Program-made: the position numbers and the translations under genes
Notes under the pieces: model-generated
What the model saw: the letters and a program-made list of their open reading frames with translations, nothing else
Databases searched by the model: none
Told to the model about the DNA's origin: nothing
NCBI RefSeq assembly: GCF_018327685.1
Contig: NZ_BNEL01000001.1
Location: forward strand, 2,542,001 to 2,606,000
DNA: 64,000 nucleotides
Reading direction: 5' to 3'
From: Streptomyces sp. TS71-3
Lineage (GTDB): Bacteria; Actinomycetota; Actinomycetes; Streptomycetales; Streptomycetaceae
In this document: positions 2,088 to 62,795 of the stretch, in pieces
How the letters are laid out: each line of letters starts with the position of its first letter
Position numbering within the stretch: the first letter of the stretch is position 1

Positions 2088-2633
2088 CTGCTTCGGGGCC
2101 CCCGGTTCCCTTCAGGGGCGCGGGGCTGTGTCGTGGGGGCACCTCCCACGCCCTTGAGGCAGTGGGGGAGGCTCCGCCGCGTGGGCGCGACCAGCCATGA
2201 CGCGACCTTGCAGGTCGTCACAGGCCGGAAGGGGCTGGTTCTGTCGTTTCCTGACCACCGGCGGGTGGGTGGTCGCTCGCGCAGTTCCCCGCGCCCCTTC
2301 CGGGCGGGCACGTACGTTGGGCGAGACCCCGGCCTCCCCAGGGGCGCGGGGAACTGCGCGCTCAGCTACGACTGGGGGCACCTCCCACGCCCTTCAGGCA
2401 GTGGGGGACGTCGCGTCGTCACCGTCCCGAGGGGGCTGGTTCTGTCGTGTCCGGACCACCGGCGGGTGGTGGCTGCTCGCGCAGTTCCCCGCGCCCCTCA
2501 GGGGGAACCGGGCGCACCCGAACAGTTCCACCTGCCTCGAAAGCCCCGGGGGCGCCCGGAATCCGAGCGCCCCGAGGGGACCGGGGGACCCGGGGGCACC
2601 CGGGGGGATTCCGGGGTGCCCCCGGAGGAGGTG
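2088..2633. repeat. Intergenic mosaic of repeats A and B
   Basis: There is no credible gene. The stretch is built from dispersed elements found elsewhere in the window: repeat B at 2134-2170 and 2373-2408, repeat A in plus orientation at 2275-2298 and 2475-2498, and repeat A in minus orientation at 2340-2361. A G/C-rich segment of short GGGG/CCCC runs (2545-2630) follows, next to the stop of the converging PRC-barrel gene. Several segments can fold into hairpins and could stop transcription from both sides. Confidence 0.7.
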
Positions 2634-3623
2634 TCACGAGGAGGGGCCCTCCTCGGGCGTCTCCACGTCGATCCGCTCCTTGCGGACCTCCCCCCGCACG
2701 GTCTCCTGCTCCGTCTTCTCCTCGACCCCCAACCGAACCCGCTCCACCGGCACGGTCTCCGTCTCGATCACCACGCGATCGGCGTGCAGCACCACCTCGT
2801 GCTGCCCCTCGGAGATGTCCGGCCCGGCCAGCGCCGCGTCCCGGTTCTCCTCGGTGATCGGCTCGCGCTCGATCCTGACCTCCTCGTGGGTCAGCGGGAT
2901 CCGCTGCTCCTCCTCCTCGGTGATCACGTACTTGCGCAGCCGCGCCCGGCCCACGGCCTGCCGCTCGGTGGTGAGGTGCAGGTGCTCCTCGGAACGGGTC
3001 ATGGCCTCCGTGAAGTCACCGCCCCGCTCCGGCGCAGGCTGCCCGGACGCCGCGGGCATGGCGCCCTCGGTCCCGGCGGGCGGGGGCATGGCGCCCACAC
3101 CAGCGCCGCCCTCGGCGGGCATCCCCTCGCGGGAGGTCCCCGCGCCCTCACCGGTCATCCCGGACGCCTCGCCCTCGGCGGGCATCTCGGCGGTCTCCTC
3201 GGCGCCCGACTCCGCGAAGGCCGGCCCGGAGCGCTCCGCCGCGCCGCTCTCACCGGTGCCGGTGCGGCCCGCGGCCGGCTGCTCGGTGGTCTGCCAGGCG
3301 GTGTCCCACTCCACCTCGTAGTACTCGTACAGCCGGTGCTCCTCCTCGGCGGACAGGTGCCCGCCGGAGTCGATGGCGACGGTGGGGGCCTCCTTGACCT
3401 TCGCCTTGTCGAACGGGACCTCCAGGTGGTCCTCGACCAGCGCGGCGTCCCGGATCGGGACGAAGGACTCACGGCCGCCGAACATGCCGGTCTTCACGCT
3501 GGCCCATTCGGGGCGGCCGCTGACGTCGTCGAGGAAGATGTGCTTGGCGTCGCCGATCTTGTTCCCCTGCGTGTCGTACACGGCGTGGTCCAGCACGCTC
3601 GGTATCTGCTCTCGTGTGATCAC
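2634..3623 (-). CDS. PRC-barrel / DUF2382 stress-response protein
   Basis: A 329-residue protein of the AvaK/YsnF-like family. An N-terminal PRC-barrel (about residues 1-90, ITREQIPSVLDHAVYDTQG) is followed by a long Ala/Gly/Glu/Pro-rich linker. A C-terminal DUF2382 domain (about 215-315) carries the typical RIPLTHEEVRIEREPI signature. Such proteins are abundant in stressed or sporulating actinomycetes and their biochemical role is unknown. The GTG at 3623 was chosen because GAGGGAG precedes it by six bases; the open frame runs further upstream without a better site. It lies antisense between mec and cysO, so it interrupts a gene set that is contiguous in mycobacteria. Confidence 0.85.
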   Translation of the reverse strand: MITREQIPSVLDHAVYDTQGNKIGDAKHIFLDDVSGRPEWASVKTGMFGGRESFVPIRDAALVEDHLEVPFDKAKVKEAPTVAIDSGGHLSAEEEHRLYEYYEVEWDTAWQTTEQPAAGRTGTGESGAAERSGPAFAESGAEETAEMPAEGEASGMTGEGAGTSREGMPAEGGAGVGAMPPPAGTEGAMPAASGQPAPERGGDFTEAMTRSEEHLHLTTERQAVGRARLRKYVITEEEEQRIPLTHEEVRIEREPITEENRDAALAGPDISEGQHEVVLHADRVVIETETVPVERVRLGVEEKTEQETVRGEVRKERIDVETPEEGPSS

Positions 3624-5724: not shown

Positions 5725-6021
5725 GACGCGACCGTACCCGGGGGTGACGGGCCCGTCGAGGCCGCCGAACCGGTGACAGCGCAGGTGAGTTCCCCCACAA
5801 CGGCCCACGACGGAGGAGCGACCGGCGCTTTTGCGCCTTACGCTCTCCGCCTGGGGGTATTGCCCACGCTTTTCAGCGTCGTGGTGGACCTTTGGGGTCC
5901 CCCACTGCCTTGGAGGCGCGGGAGGCACCCCCAGGGTGCCCCGGACCGCACGACCACGTCTGTCCCGTCGCCGATACGGCCGTCCCGTCCAACGCCAGCC
6001 CGCGCGGAGGTTCCAGCAGCA
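5725..6021. repeat. Gap with degenerate repeat B copies
   Basis: This holds the divergent promoters of the small membrane gene and the MBL gene. A diverged repeat B in minus orientation sits at 5898-5933, and a more decayed plus-orientation copy lies at about 5850-5885 (TGGGGGTATTGCCCACGC). The open frame of the MBL gene extends through this region, but the protein family starts at 6022. Confidence 0.5.
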
Positions 6022-14220: not shown

Positions 14221-14734
14221 CCGTTTTCGGCTCCGCCGCGGGGCCCTGCGGGCGGCTACCGGCCGGATGGGGTTGTTCCGGTTGTGTCCGGACCACCGGT
14301 GGGTGGGGCTTCGCCCCGATAAGCGGCTCCGCCGCTTGGACCGTCCCGGTGGGGCGGTTTCTGTCGTGTCCGGATCGTCGGTGGGTGGGTGGTTGCTCGC
14401 GCAGTTCCCCGCGCCCCTATCAGGACGGGGCTTCGCCCCGATCCCCCGGCTCGCGTCGCGGCTGCCGCACCCCTATCGGGGCGGAGCCCGGCCTTGCCAG
14501 GGGCGCGGGGAACTGCGCGACCAGCTACGGCGAGGCCGTTGGATCGTCACCGGCCTGAAGGGGCGGTTGGGGGATCGGGGCGGAGCCCGGCCTTGCCAGG
14601 GGCGCGGGGAACTGCGCGACCAGCTACGGCGAGGCCGTCGGATGGCCACCGGCCCGAAGGGGCAGACGGGGATCGGGGCGAAGCCCCGTCCGGATAGGGG
14701 CACGGGGGGCAGCGCCCCCTGAGGGGGCGGTCTC
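14221..14734. repeat. Repeat A array with 68-bp direct duplication
   Basis: No gene is supported. Repeat A occurs in plus orientation at 14395-14418 and in minus orientation at 14499-14523 and 14598-14622. The latter two lie inside a near-identical direct duplication of about 68 bp with a 99-bp offset (about 14475-14542 and 14574-14641). GGGGC(T/G)TCGCCCC-type short palindromes are interspersed. It separates the converging GroES-like and PBP genes and probably terminates both. Confidence 0.7.
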
Positions 14735-21430: not shown

Positions 21431-21668
21431 GCGCCCGATAGGGGCGCGGGGTGGGGGTACCTCCCACGCCTTCAAGGCAGTGGGGGAGCGAGCAACCACC
21501 AACCGCCGATGGTCGGAGACGGCAGAACCAGCCCCCTCGGGGCGGTGACGACCTGATGGCTCGTCGTGGCTGGTCGCGCAGTTCCCCGCGCCCCTAAGAG
21601 ACGGGGCTTCGCCCCGAAAAGACAGGGGGTGCCCCCAAAAAGTGCCCGCGCCCCCGCCGGGGCGGGCC
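21431..21668. repeat. Repeat B and A between converging genes
   Basis: Repeat B in plus orientation at 21452-21488 and repeat A in plus orientation at 21571-21595, joined by the CGGTTGGTGGTTGCTCGC-like linker seen at other loci. It separates two converging genes, as expected for a terminator role. Confidence 0.7.
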
Positions 21669-24916: not shown

Positions 24917-26401
24917 GTGTCCGATTCAGCCTCCAGAGGAACCGGCGTGGTGACCACCGCCGTACCCGCCAGGCTGGACCGCCTGCCCTGGTCGCGCTGG
25001 CACTGGATGATCGTCATTGGCCTGGGCACCGTGTGGATCCTGGACGGCTTGGAAGTCACCGTCGTCGGGAACATCGCCGGCCGGCTCTCCGAACCCGGCA
25101 GCGGCCTGCACATCGACTCGGGCCAGATCACGGGCGTCGCGGCCGCGCTGTACGTCGCCGGGGCCTGCGTGGGCGCGCTGTTCTTCGGCCACCTGACCGA
25201 CCGGTTCGGCCGCAAGCGCCTCTTCATGGTGACGCTGGTGGTGTACCTGGCGGCCACCGCGCTGACCGGCGTCTCGTTCGAGTCCTGGTGGTTCTTCGTC
25301 TTCCGCTTCCTCACCGGCCTCGGCATCGGCGGCGAGTACGCGGCCATCAACTCGGCCATCGACGAGCTCATCCCGTCCGACTACCGCGGCCGGGTCGACC
25401 TGATCATCAACGGCACCTTCTGGCTGGGCGCCATCGGCGGGTCGCTGCTGTCCATCGTGATGCTGGACACCGACCTCTTCGCGAAGGACCTCGGCTGGCG
25501 GCTCACCTTCGGGCTGGGCGTCGTGCTCGGCCTGGTGGTGCTGCTGGTGCGGCGGAACGTACCCGAGAGCCCGCGATGGCTGATCATCCACGGCCGCGAG
25601 CAGGAGGCGGAACGGCTGGTGGACTCGGTGGAACGGCGGGTGGCCGCCGAGACCGGCCGGGAACTGCCGCCGGCAGCGAGTGAGATCACCATCCACCAGC
25701 GCACCACGATCGGCTTCCTGGAGATCGCCCGCACCCTGTTCTCGTCCTACCGCAAGCGCAGCGCGCTCGGCTTCGCGCTCTTCGTCGGCCAGGCGTTCCT
25801 CTACAACGCGATCACCTTCGGCTTCGGCGCCATCCTCACCACGTTCTTCGACGTGCCGAGCGGGGACACCGGCTACTACTTCGCGGTGATCGCCGCCGGC
25901 AACCTGCTCGGGCCGCTGCTGCTCGGCCCGCTCTTCGACACCGTGGGCCGCCGCATCATGATCTCCTCCACGTACCTGCTCTCCGGGGTGCTGCTGTTCG
26001 GCACGGCTGCGCTCTTCGACAGCGGCGTGCTGAGCGCGGCCACGCTCACGGCGTGCTGGTGCGTGGTGCTGTTCTTCGCGTCGGCCGGCGCGAGCAGCGC
26101 GTACCTCACCGTCTCGGAGATCTTCCCGATGGAGACCCGCGCCCTGGCCATCGCGTTCTTCTATGCCATCGGCACGGCGGCCGGCGGCATCACGGGCCCC
26201 CTGGTCTTCGCCGACCTCACCGGCAGCGGCAAGGTCGGCGACACGGTACTGGCGTTCCAGATCGGAGCGGCGCTGATGTGCGCGGCGGGCCTGGTGGCGG
26301 CGGCGTGCGCGGTGCGCGCGGAACGCCGCTCGCTGGAGTCCATCGCCACCCCGCTCACGGCGGCGGCGACCCCGTCGCGGGGTCGCGCCCCGGCGACTTA
26401 G
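24917..26401 (+). CDS. MFS transporter (sugar/aromatic-acid type)
   Basis: A 494-residue twelve-helix MFS protein. Conserved segments are GHLTDRFGRKRLFMVTLVVY (loop 2-3), FRFLTGLGIGGEYAAINSAI (helices 4-5), RRNVPESPRWLIIHGREQEAE at the central loop, and the late SEIFPMETRALAIAFFY. The central loop and PESPRWL motif fit the sugar porter and AAHS-related groups. GTG 24917 has AAGGAGGG four bases upstream. Substrate unknown; proton symport is likely. Confidence 0.87.
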   Translation: MSDSASRGTGVVTTAVPARLDRLPWSRWHWMIVIGLGTVWILDGLEVTVVGNIAGRLSEPGSGLHIDSGQITGVAAALYVAGACVGALFFGHLTDRFGRKRLFMVTLVVYLAATALTGVSFESWWFFVFRFLTGLGIGGEYAAINSAIDELIPSDYRGRVDLIINGTFWLGAIGGSLLSIVMLDTDLFAKDLGWRLTFGLGVVLGLVVLLVRRNVPESPRWLIIHGREQEAERLVDSVERRVAAETGRELPPAASEITIHQRTTIGFLEIARTLFSSYRKRSALGFALFVGQAFLYNAITFGFGAILTTFFDVPSGDTGYYFAVIAAGNLLGPLLLGPLFDTVGRRIMISSTYLLSGVLLFGTAALFDSGVLSAATLTACWCVVLFFASAGASSAYLTVSEIFPMETRALAIAFFYAIGTAAGGITGPLVFADLTGSGKVGDTVLAFQIGAALMCAAGLVAAACAVRAERRSLESIATPLTAAATPSRGRAPAT

Positions 26402-26634
26402 GGCTGCGGGGACGGCTCCGTCGGGCCACCGGTGAGTGGGTGGTTTTGCGCAGTTCCCCGCGCCCCTGGGTGGGCCGGGGCGTAGCCCCGCTTTTCAGGG
26501 CGGATTCCAGGGGCGCGGGGAACTGCGCGAGCAACCACGACGAAACCGTCGAGTCGGCACTGTCCTGAGGGGCCTGGTTCTGGCGCGTTCGGGCCGCTGC
26601 CCGTGGGGGCCACCAGTGGCCGGATTACTCCCAT
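26402..26634. repeat. Repeat A inverted pair
   Basis: Repeat A in plus orientation at 26446-26467 and in minus orientation at 26509-26533. These form a long inverted repeat that could fold into a large hairpin downstream of the MFS gene and upstream of the AraC-type gene. Confidence 0.65.
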
Positions 26635-27743
26635 ATGCAAGAATCAAGCCATGGAAGGCACCGGCAACCACGGAGAGCGGCCACCGGGGCGAAGCTCCAG
26701 CGGCCAACCGGGGCCAAGCCCCACAGGATCGCCGTGCTCGTTCGCGACGGCGTGCTCCCGATGGAGCTGGGCCTCGTTCACCAGCTCTTCGGAACGGCAC
26801 GTTCCATCCCCGCGGGGGACCCGCTCTACGAGGTGCTGACCTGCGCGATCACCCCGGGCCTGGTCCGCACCGACGCCGACTTCCCGATCCACGCGCCGCA
26901 CGGCGCCGACCTGCTGGCCGCCGCAGGCACCGTGATCGTGCCCGCCTCCCACGAGCACGACGAGTCGCTCACCGCCGCCGGCGGCCTCCCCGAGCCGCTC
27001 GCCGCCGCGCTGGCGGCCGTGCCGCCCGGCAGCCGGATCGCGTGGATCTGCACGGGCGCGTTCGTGCTCGCCGCGGCGGGCCTGCTGGACGGGTGCCGGG
27101 CCACCACGCACTGGAGCTCCGCGGAGGAGTTCGCGCGGGCCTTCCCGGCCGTGGCCACCGACCCGGACGTGCTCTACGTCGACGAGGGCCGGGTGCTCAC
27201 CTCGGCGGGCGAGGCGGCCGGGATCGACCTGTGCCTGCACATGATCCGCCGGGACCACGGGGCCGCCGTCGCTCCCCCACTGCCTGAAAGGCGTGGGAGG
27301 TACCCCCAGAGGTGGCGCGGCGCTGCGTGGTGCCGCCGCACCGGGAGGGCGGCCAGGCGCAGTACATCCGGCGGCCGGTGGTGCAGGACCGCTCCACGTC
27401 CACGTCCGCCTCGCGCGCCTGGGCGCTGGGGCGGCTGGGCGAGCGGATCACGCTGGCGGAACTCGCGGTCCGGGAGGCGATGAGCGTGCGCACCTACAGC
27501 CGCAGATTCCGCGAGGAGACCGGCCTCACCCCCGTCCAGTGGCTGACCCAGCGGCGCCTGGACCGGGCCCGGCAGCTCCTGGAGGAGACCGACCGCACGG
27601 TGGACCGGATCGCGGCGGAGGCGGGCTTCGGCACCGGGGCGTCCCTGCGGCAGCACTTCCACGCGGCGCTCGGGGTCTCCCCGGGTGCGTACCGGACGAC
27701 GTTCCGGGGCACTCGCACGACCCAGGACCAGCCCCGGCGGTGA
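26635..27743 (+). pseudogene. GlxA-type AraC regulator interrupted by repeat B
   Basis: Two adjoining frames together spell one regulator: a DJ-1/PfpI-like domain (HRIAVLVRDGVLPMELGLVH through LCLHMIRRDHGAAVA) and an AraC helix-turn-helix (RITLAELAVREAMSVRTYSR, then VDRIAAEAGFGTGASLRQHF). Between them, 27273-27308 is a copy of the palindromic repeat B. It replaces the few bases expected between GCC-GTC-GC and GAG-GTG-GCG and shifts the frame by 2. Intact relatives read straight through (AAVANEVARR-type). GTG 27312 could restart translation, since repeat B supplies GGGAGG 11 bases ahead, giving a free DNA-binding domain ending at 27743. Confidence 0.8.
27273..27308 (-). mobile_element. Repeat B copy inside a coding region
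   Basis: Begins TCCCCCACTGCCTGAAAGG and ends GTGGGAGGTACCCCCA. It is the reverse complement of the intergenic repeat B (for example 21452-21488). Its presence inside a conserved reading frame argues that the element can move or be copied. There is no open frame in it, so any movement would need enzymes supplied from elsewhere. Confidence 0.7.
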
Positions 27744-27783
27744 CCGCGGCCGCCGAGGGCGCGCGAGCGGAGAGGCGGTTGCC

Positions 27784-28713
27784 TTGAGCACGTCACCCGG
27801 GAGCATCCCGTCGCGGATGGGCGACCTGACGGGCGCGGCCGGCGAGCCCGAGCCGCCCCGCGCCGGCGCCGGGCGGCTGCGGGTGCTGACGATGAACGTC
27901 CTGGAGCCCCAGTACGCCAACGGCGGCCTGCGCCGGGCCGCGCTCGGGGCGCTGCTGGAGCAGCTCGCACCCGACGTCGTCGCACTCCAGGAGATCACCG
28001 GCGAGGAGGCCACGCGGCTGCGCGCCGACGGCTGGCACGTGGCGCCGCATCCGCACTGGTCGGCCGAGCCGTTCGAGGGGGTGGGGGCGGTGCTGGCCGC
28101 GCGCCGGCCGTTCGGCCGGATCGAGCAGGACGAGCTGCGGGTGACCGAGCGGACCGCGAGCACCCCGTGGTGCGGTGTCGTCGCGGCGGAGCTGCCGATG
28201 CCCGAGCCGCTGGGGAACGTGCTCGTGGTCCACCACAAGCCGAGTTTCCCGTACGGCTTCGAGCACGAACGGGAGCTTCAGGCGGTGGCCACGGCCCGGC
28301 TGGTGGAGGAGGCGGTCACGGTGTGGGGCGCCCGGCACGTGGTGCTGGCCGGCGATCTCGACGCGGCGCCGGACGCGGCGTCGATCCGGTTCCTGTCCGG
28401 CCGGCAGTCGCTGGACGGCATGAGCGTCCGCTACCAGGACGCCTGGCTCAGGCTCCACCGCGACGCCACGCCCTCTTCCGGCCACACGTTCTCGCCACGG
28501 AACCCGCTGGTCCGGCGCGGCGACATGCCGGACGAGGAGGGGCGGCGCATCGACTACATCATGGTGCGGTGCGGATCGTACGGGCCGACGCTGCGGGTGG
28601 CGGCGTGCGAACGCGCCGGGGTGGAGCCCGTACGCGGCGTCCAGGTCAGCGACCACTACGGGGTCGTCGCCGACCTGACTCCGCAGTCACGCCGTCCCGG
28701 CAGGTGGGGCTGA
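27784..28713 (+). CDS. Endonuclease/exonuclease/phosphatase family protein
   Basis: A protein of about 309 residues with the EEP fold: LRVLTMNVLEP (Asn metal site), PDVVALQEIT (Glu), VVHHKPS, LAGDLDAAPD (Asp), RIDYIMV and the terminal SDHYGVVADL (Asp-His) are all in order. It may cut nucleic acid or act as a phosphodiesterase; the substrate is open. It lies 40 bases after the broken AraC gene. TTG 27784 has GAGAGG upstream; ATG 27817 is an alternative start. Confidence 0.82.
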   Translation: MSTSPGSIPSRMGDLTGAAGEPEPPRAGAGRLRVLTMNVLEPQYANGGLRRAALGALLEQLAPDVVALQEITGEEATRLRADGWHVAPHPHWSAEPFEGVGAVLAARRPFGRIEQDELRVTERTASTPWCGVVAAELPMPEPLGNVLVVHHKPSFPYGFEHERELQAVATARLVEEAVTVWGARHVVLAGDLDAAPDAASIRFLSGRQSLDGMSVRYQDAWLRLHRDATPSSGHTFSPRNPLVRRGDMPDEEGRRIDYIMVRCGSYGPTLRVAACERAGVEPVRGVQVSDHYGVVADLTPQSRRPGRWG

Positions 28714-29167
28714 GCGGTATCCCCGCAGGGGCGCAGCCAGTTTTCAGGGGCGCGGGGAACCGTGCGACAAGCCACGACGTGACCGTCGGGTAGTCACCGA
28801 CCTGACGGGGCTGGTTCTGTCGTGTCCGGACCATCGGTGGGTGGGTGGTTGCTCGCGCAGTTCCCCGCGCTCCTTTTCAGGCGGGGCTGCGCCCCGGCCA
28901 ACCTGGGAGCGCGGGGTCGGGGTACCTCCCACGCTCTCAAGGCAGTGGGGGAGCGACAAGCCACGACTGGGGGCACCTCCCACGCCCTTCAGGCGGTGGG
29001 GGACGTCAGGTCGCCACCGGCCTGGAGGGGCAGTTGGGGTCGTGTCCGGACCGCCGGTGGGTGGGTGGTTGCTCGCGCCCACGCGGCGGAGCCGCACAAC
29101 GACACAGCCCCGCGCCCCTGGGTGGGCCGGGGCGCGGCCCCGCATCGCGTCCCGGACGCGGCGGGCG
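28714..29167. repeat. Dense mosaic of repeats A and B
   Basis: No gene is supported. Repeat A minus (from 28746) and plus (28851-28874), and repeat B plus at 28917-28953 and 28968-29003, alternate with the linker GTCCGGACC(A/G)(T/C)CGGTGGGTGG. The region lies between converging genes. Confidence 0.7.
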
Positions 29168-44963: not shown

Positions 44964-45432
44964 GCGCGTCCGCGGGTCGGCCGACTGCCGGGGCGCGCCT
45001 TCTCCGTGACGTGACCGTTGGGTCGTCGCCGTAGCTCGCGCCCACGCGGCGGAGCCTCCCCCACTGCCTCAAGGGCGTGGGAGGTACCCCCAGGACGCGG
45101 TCCCGCGCCCCTTGAGGGCACTGGCGGCACTCAGTTGTAAGGCCGCGCCCCGCAAGGGGCGCGGGGAACTGCGCGACCAGCCACGACGAGACCGTCAGGT
45201 CGTCACCGTCCCGAGGGGGCTGGTTCTGTCGTTTCCGGACCATCGGCGGGTGGGTAGTTGCTCGCGCCCACGCGGCGGAGCCTCCCCCACTGCCTCAAGG
45301 GCGTGGGAGGTACCCCCAGGACACAGTCCCGCGCCCCATGATGGAACCGGGGTACCCAGCCTGTAAGGCTCCCCCGACAGGGGCGCTTTTCCGGCCCAAG
45401 CCCTCCGCGGGAACCCGTGGTGGGATGGACCC
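44964..45432. repeat. Repeats A and B with 78-bp duplication
   Basis: Two near-identical 78-bp copies (45034-45111 and 45260-45337, 226 bp apart) each carry a minus-orientation repeat B (45056-45092, 45282-45318). Repeat A in minus orientation lies between them at 45155-45180. No gene is supported. Confidence 0.75.
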
Positions 45433-62641: not shown

Positions 62642-62795
62642 GCCCCCTCGGGCCGGTGGTCCGCTTTCCCTTTCGTCGTGGCCGCTCGCGCAGTTCCCCG
62701 CGCCCCTGTCGGGGCCCTGCCCCCTCGGGTTCGTGGGCTGCTTTCCCTTTCGTCGTGGCTGGTCGCGCAGTTCCCCGCGCCCCTTATGGGGCGCT
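62642..62795. repeat. 77-bp tandem duplication containing repeat A
   Basis: Copies at 62642-62718 and 62719-62795 share GCCCCCTCGGG, CTTTCCCTTTCGTCGTGG and the repeat A core GCGCAGTTCCCCGCGCCCC at a constant 77-bp offset, with differences between. It fills the gap between the permease and the dehydrogenase. Confidence 0.8.

Follow-up and report, generated by a model that had tools for sequence, protein, structure and literature searches.

DDE transposition leaves a target duplication, and IS200/IS605 elements insert cleanly. Cyanobacterial SDR are very small mobile repeats of tens of bases that also lie inside other repeats and appear to be mobile without a known enzyme. SDR5 is said to insert precisely between two HIP1 bases (PMC4390886, PMC2884548). 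As described in the accessible parts of a review, Rickettsia palindromic elements are palindromic repeats of about 150 bp that lie in genes, often in frame, and MITEs are short, non-autonomous and present in many copies (PMC10969869). REPs and REPINs with their RAYT are short imperfect palindromes in many copies, mostly intergenic, occurring as singlets or doublets and thought to be mobile and non-autonomous (PMC2817692, PMC3116915; accessible parts). How short palindromes of this kind come to occupy new sites has long been asked, and the accessible text of the REPIN paper describes the mechanism as unsettled (PMC2817692, PMC3116915).

Here we analyze repeat B, a 36-bp palindrome found within an AraC-type regulator gene of Streptomyces sp. 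TS71-3. The gene lies in a 64,000-nucleotide stretch of the genome, analyzed as a whole and termed the window. In open-licence literature, which mostly lacks subscription papers and provides no proof of absence, we recognized no description of B.

Results

A copy of repeat B in an AraC-type regulator gene

An earlier note on this DNA had reported a repeat B copy at 27273-27308, between two in-order regulator halves in changed frame. We confirm both observations. The block is a full-length 36-bp B inside the gene, its borders are those obtained from 112 copies of the repeat, and the DJ-1/PfpI domain (26635-27483) and the AraC helix-turn-helix (27312-27743) are encoded in separate reading frames. 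This domain combination is what we take to be the GlxA-type make-up. The best-matching named loci of the gene are mostly from Streptomyces, with some from Saccharopolyspora, Prauserella and others.

The alignment of orthologues that the note had proposed found the block in none of 137 homologous loci, where the local length is 32 bases less; these represent fewer than 137 independent cases, since several genomes entered via two collections and not all loci are necessarily orthologues. Among them is a syntenic orthologue without the block, L062 from Streptomyces sp. ODS25 (genome G416), whose neighbor genes are 73-85% identical to those at the regulator and whose shared set of neighboring genes marks it as a true positional match. 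With flanks aligned separately, the replaced length was 4 bp in all 135 measurable loci of the 137. The expectation that relatives lack exactly this block therefore stands as to its absence and fails as to its extent, as 36 bp replace 4 bp. A simple insertion of 36 or 38 bp is ruled out by the net gain of 32 bp. Since 32 equals 2 modulo 3, the reading frame is shifted, and the regulator was probably lost upon insertion of B. That the block was ancestral in the regulator gene and was lost elsewhere is extremely improbable, with nothing found in its favor, given its absence from all 137 loci including the syntenic orthologue and its breaking of the frame.

The earlier note had also proposed that GGGAGG within B could drive re-initiation at GTG 27312. 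We find the two 11 bases apart. The upstream frame has its stop only at 27481-27483, about 170 bases past the GTG, so termination-coupled re-initiation is inapplicable and was rejected on frame grounds. With GGGAGG mostly paired in the predicted hairpin as well, this proposal is weak and such re-initiation unlikely.

Table 1 Features of the window (64,000 nucleotides) discussed in the text
Position	Strand	Feature	Evidence
2134..2169	-	B between class 2 repeat flanks (GGCGGAGCC..ACACAG)	
2373..2408	-	Repeat B copy, class 3 flanks	
5898..5933	+	B, diverged	
21452..21487	-	Repeat B copy within one repeat A arm; other arm at 21578 without B	
26635..27483	+	Upstream ORF, DJ-1/PfpI part of regulator; continues through B with a tail out of frame	
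27273..27308	+	Repeat B, 36 bp, replaces 4 bp of AraC-type regulator gene	Homologue alignment, unit borders
27295..27300	+	GGGAGG of B, putative ribosome site; largely paired in the predicted hairpin	
27312..27743	+	Downstream ORF, AraC helix-turn-helix part	
28917..28952	-	B within an arm of repeat A	
28968..29003	-	Repeat B copy, class 3 flanks	
45057..45092	+	Repeat B copy, class 2 flanks	
45283..45318	+	Repeat B copy, class 2 flanks	
26450-26526; 2281-2498; 14401-14615; 21578; 33824; 40872; 45155; 62690-62784		Repeat A in window	

The repeat unit, its hairpin and its placement

Information content across 112 copies from this genome delineates a sharp 36-bp unit with T at one end and A at the other, beyond which the signal is close to background. 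These distinct copies stem from the window and from loci around about 100 of the 178 genome copies (up to 6 mismatches). The search pattern does not reach the right border but includes the left one, which depends on the tolerated mismatches. Because copies were located with full-length patterns, truncated insertions are missed and the fixed ends are partly built in. The count of 178 for the 9.79 Mb genome (89 + 89 matches) was obtained with a 35-base pattern and up to 3 mismatches, and the reversed control pattern gave 0. The window itself has nine copies when up to 9 mismatches in 38 are allowed.

The copy in the AraC gene starts with TCCCCCA and ends with CCCCCA, and its central TGGGAGG is able to pair with either end, making two alternative stems possible. 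Its predicted hairpin energy is modestly better than that of shuffles (z -1.97 and -1.12). Across 22 variants chosen by hand from the search results, 95% of stem cells are paired and 13 double changes occur, compared with 3.9 in shuffles. This covariation support is narrow, as 12 of the 13 double changes come from a single pair; 24 of 500 shuffles reached B's number of pairs with double changes, and 492 of 500 had as many further pair types. An Rfam search of positions 26000-29000 with E up to 1 yielded no match in B and one sub-threshold match in repeat A.

Stem covariation in the 22 variants is consistent with B being kept as a functional hairpin at gene ends, a terminator or mRNA stabilizer, with the AraC copy accidental. 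The placement of B points the same way. The 104 placed intergenic copies divide into 36 convergent, 55 tandem and 13 divergent gaps, compared with 61, 140 and 62 among 263 background gaps from the same loci, with genes called by a simple composition script. B thus favors convergent gaps (36/104 vs 61/263, p 0.035) and avoids divergent ones (13/104 vs 62/263, p 0.021). However, the background includes B-holding gaps, and avoidance of the promoter side is also expected from selection against harm. Uneven copy number and copies in genes and other repeats need no function either, and we consider this explanation improbable.

Among 392 genomes of the genus, 193 contain at least one B (up to 3 mismatches), and its copy number is very uneven between species: against 178 copies here, the next highest count among the 392 is 47, and G416 holds 92. 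No B was found in 45 kb of G416 (L341-L343) that is syntenic to positions 1-32 kb of the window; the seven copies that the window has there are therefore not shared with this relative. Elsewhere in G416, a larger repeat holds B with conserved flanks on both sides (L234, L237, L239, L243, L248, L249, L257-L260), partly as inverted doublets with a spacing of about 108 bp. In L173 and L188 (about 2988-3070), two oppositely oriented B copies adjoin each other, as if one had entered the other's end. B-like units also form short tandem arrays, with a period of about 31-34 bp, in L230 (about 2945-3078), L186 (about 3025-3095) and L235 (about 1501-1567).

Repeat B within other repeats

The chief host of B is repeat A, a longer palindrome whose arms surround GCAGTTCCCCGCGCCCCT and which occurs repeatedly along the window. 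A repeat A arm holds 51 of the 112 own-genome copies; the script had assigned 56 to this class, of which 5 were dropped as their flanks were not both those of A. For empty arms, 519 kb of own-genome sequence gave 91 pattern matches, of which 73 have the form TCGC-GCAGTT-CCCCGCGCCCC. Filled arms are without GCAGT in 25 copies and without GCAGTT in 21, while 5 are odd. The shorter loss occurs mostly with one A arm type (8 vs 2) and the longer with the other (8 vs 3). As the length of the loss tracks the arm type, B inserted into A at least twice, followed by spread of the composite.

Two further repeat classes host B. For class 2, with 10 copies after 2 of the 12 listed were dropped for other flanks, 5 of 10 matches to the empty form read CGCATATCG, which suggests a loss of about 6 bases. 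Empty forms differ within class 3 (15 copies), for which we tentatively put the loss at about 5 bases.

Further gene insertions replace three to six bases

A scan of reading frames at 112 own and 38 G416 copies returned 8 rows for 7 sites, namely the AraC gene, L010 (twice), L198, L209, L225 and two in L246; a third L246 site is visible in its reading frame. This gives eight gene sites, five in this genome including AraC and three in the relative G416 (L246). The genome search for B with comparison of empty sites, as suggested in the earlier note, thus gave 178 copies and filled gene sites that are empty in homologues, and with eight such sites in two genomes the note's idea that B inserts as a minimal non-autonomous mobile unit gains support.

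The commonest replaced lengths at the seven sites besides AraC are 5, 6, 3, 6, 3, 3 and 3 bp. At L198, 5 bp are replaced in 24 of 24 loci and at L010 6 bp in 24 of 24. At L225 the value is 3 bp in 21 of 24 loci (-3 in 2; 2 in 1), and at L209 6 bp in 17 of 22 measurable among 24 (7 to 11 in 5). The three L246 sites were compared with 25 loci, which include this genome's own copy, the homologous L010 gene: 3 bp are replaced at the first site in 14 of 15 measurable loci, at the second, where B is diverged with 6 mismatches, in 23 of 23, and at the third (L246c) in 17 of 24 (5 in 5, 0 in 1, 9 in 1). Blast-based net lengths agree, with 31 in 23 of 24 loci at L198 (28 in 1), 30 in 24/24 at L010, 33 in 24/24 at L225 and, for the G416 sites, 33 in 15/21, 24/24 and 22/22. 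As a control, we used random cut points in the same genes (12 cut points x 10 loci in each of six genes). Of these 720, 652 were measurable; 537 gave 0 and only 12 gave 3-6. Since the control cut points mostly gave 0, the replacement of 3-6 bp belongs to the insertions. Target duplication was the commonest result at none of the eight gene sites; only the 2 of 24 rows at L225 gave -3.

Six of the seven further sites are in frame and add 10-11 residues (L010, L209, L225 and three in L246), while AraC and L198 shift the frame. Because the frame is kept, the replaced lengths at six of the eight sites are limited to multiples of 3. The in-frame B of L225 (2970-3005) adds 11 residues to a protein that by eye resembles the GH18 type, and that of L209 (2968-3003) adds 10 to one that by eye resembles an L,D-transpeptidase. 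L246 of G416 is one long gene, by eye for a phage-tail baseplate assembly protein, with clear in-frame B at 1499-1534, 1928-1963 and 2890-2925 and perhaps a fourth, diverged B near 2724; its homologue in this genome, L010, holds one B.

A loss that varies between 3 and 6 bp without duplication may be a trace of patch repair. Host repair could copy B when a short strand or end from a B locus is pasted in via microhomology or end joining with loss of a few target bases; the hairpin would then be a frequent donor and not a transposing unit. Junctions viewed by eye offer some support: those of L198 (CCACCG before and GG after B) resemble L200, and GTCGC precedes B in the AraC gene and likewise in repeat A arms. 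Yet random patches should vary in their ends, whereas here one 36-bp unit is found repeatedly, and its right border is sharp and lies beyond the search pattern. We regard host repair as a rather unlikely source of the insertions. With the identical 36 bp recurring, we lean toward a dedicated end-recognizing step.

Search for a partner enzyme

The sole Y1_Tnp gene of the genome has an internal stop and adjoins a tnpB-like gene; by eye it is IS605-like. No B occurs in 3363 bp around it (up to 9 mismatches), and no RAYT gene was found in the genome, the only Y1_Tnp match being this interrupted gene. We considered whether B could nevertheless belong to the REP type and be mobilized by RAYT or a different Y1 transposase, as it is a short imperfect palindrome in many copies with inverted doublets about 108 bp apart in G416. 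Y1_Tnp is also more frequent among genomes that hold 10 or more B copies (18/28 vs 139/392 overall, p 0.0017, uncorrected for kinship and genome size). Against this, no Y1_Tnp match was obtained for 10 of the 28 B-rich genomes, among them the genome with 47 copies, and the single gene here is broken, sits beside the tnpB-like gene and has no B within 3.4 kb. For these reasons we do not file B as a REP/RAYT element, an assignment that we hold to be quite improbable. A transposon bounded by inverted B copies was also rejected as a candidate: the ~3.6 kb between two B in L200 hold folate-synthesis-like frames by eye, with no transposase recognized.

Discussion

Insertions into genes, copies inside other repeats and the uneven copy number make B look like a non-autonomous mobile unit. 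We assign a probability of roughly 0.7 to the reading that B is a mobile palindromic unit of this kind, 36 bp long with defined ends, which replaced 4 bp of a GlxA-type AraC regulator gene on insertion, the net gain of 32 bp breaking the frame and most likely the regulator. A trans-acting factor might join a full-length copy, perhaps as a folded single strand, into a staggered break or a small gap. The target overhang would be lost rather than filled in, so that no duplication arises, and B copies may also multiply inside larger repeats.

A broader proposal is tentative and, in our estimate, falls somewhat short of an even chance. A self-contained hairpin of 36 bp in Streptomyces may spread by replacing target sequence, exchanging a defined-end copy for 3-6 bp of target and adding 10-11 residues to proteins if the frame allows, unlike DDE, IS200/IS605 or RAYT/REPIN systems. 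The similar small replacements at the other gene sites suggest, at the level of sequence, that B is among the smallest DNA units able to spread. Gene frames and homologues make the events involving B legible; their consistent scar is 3-6 lost bases. This footprint is concrete and testable, as the genus grows in the laboratory. In-frame copies further represent one way in which proteins gain short new segments.

Comparison with known systems

Measured against the accessible descriptions, B shares features with each of these systems. Like REPs and REPINs, it is a short imperfect palindrome in many copies, mostly intergenic, as singlets and doublets. It differs in that no RAYT was found in this genome, the examined gene insertions are singlets and 3-6 bp of target are replaced. 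By eye, B also has no GT(A/G)G head before the hairpin; its GTGG lies inside the 3' arm of the stem on either strand. In REPINs it is the inverted doublet that moves, whereas the AraC copy of B is a singlet, although inverted doublets exist in G416. B resembles MITEs in being non-autonomous, short and in many copies, but target duplication is not its commonest result at the eight gene sites and it forms one hairpin rather than two terminal repeats around a core. With Rickettsia palindromic elements, as far as the accessible text describes them, B shares its presence in protein genes in frame (L010, L209, L225 and three in L246); it is only 36 bp long and occurs in Streptomyces, the comparison being one of description. 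Like the SDR, B measures tens of bases, lies inside other repeats and is apparently mobile without a known enzyme. In contrast to the precise insertion without target loss given for SDR, B replaces 3-6 bp of its target.
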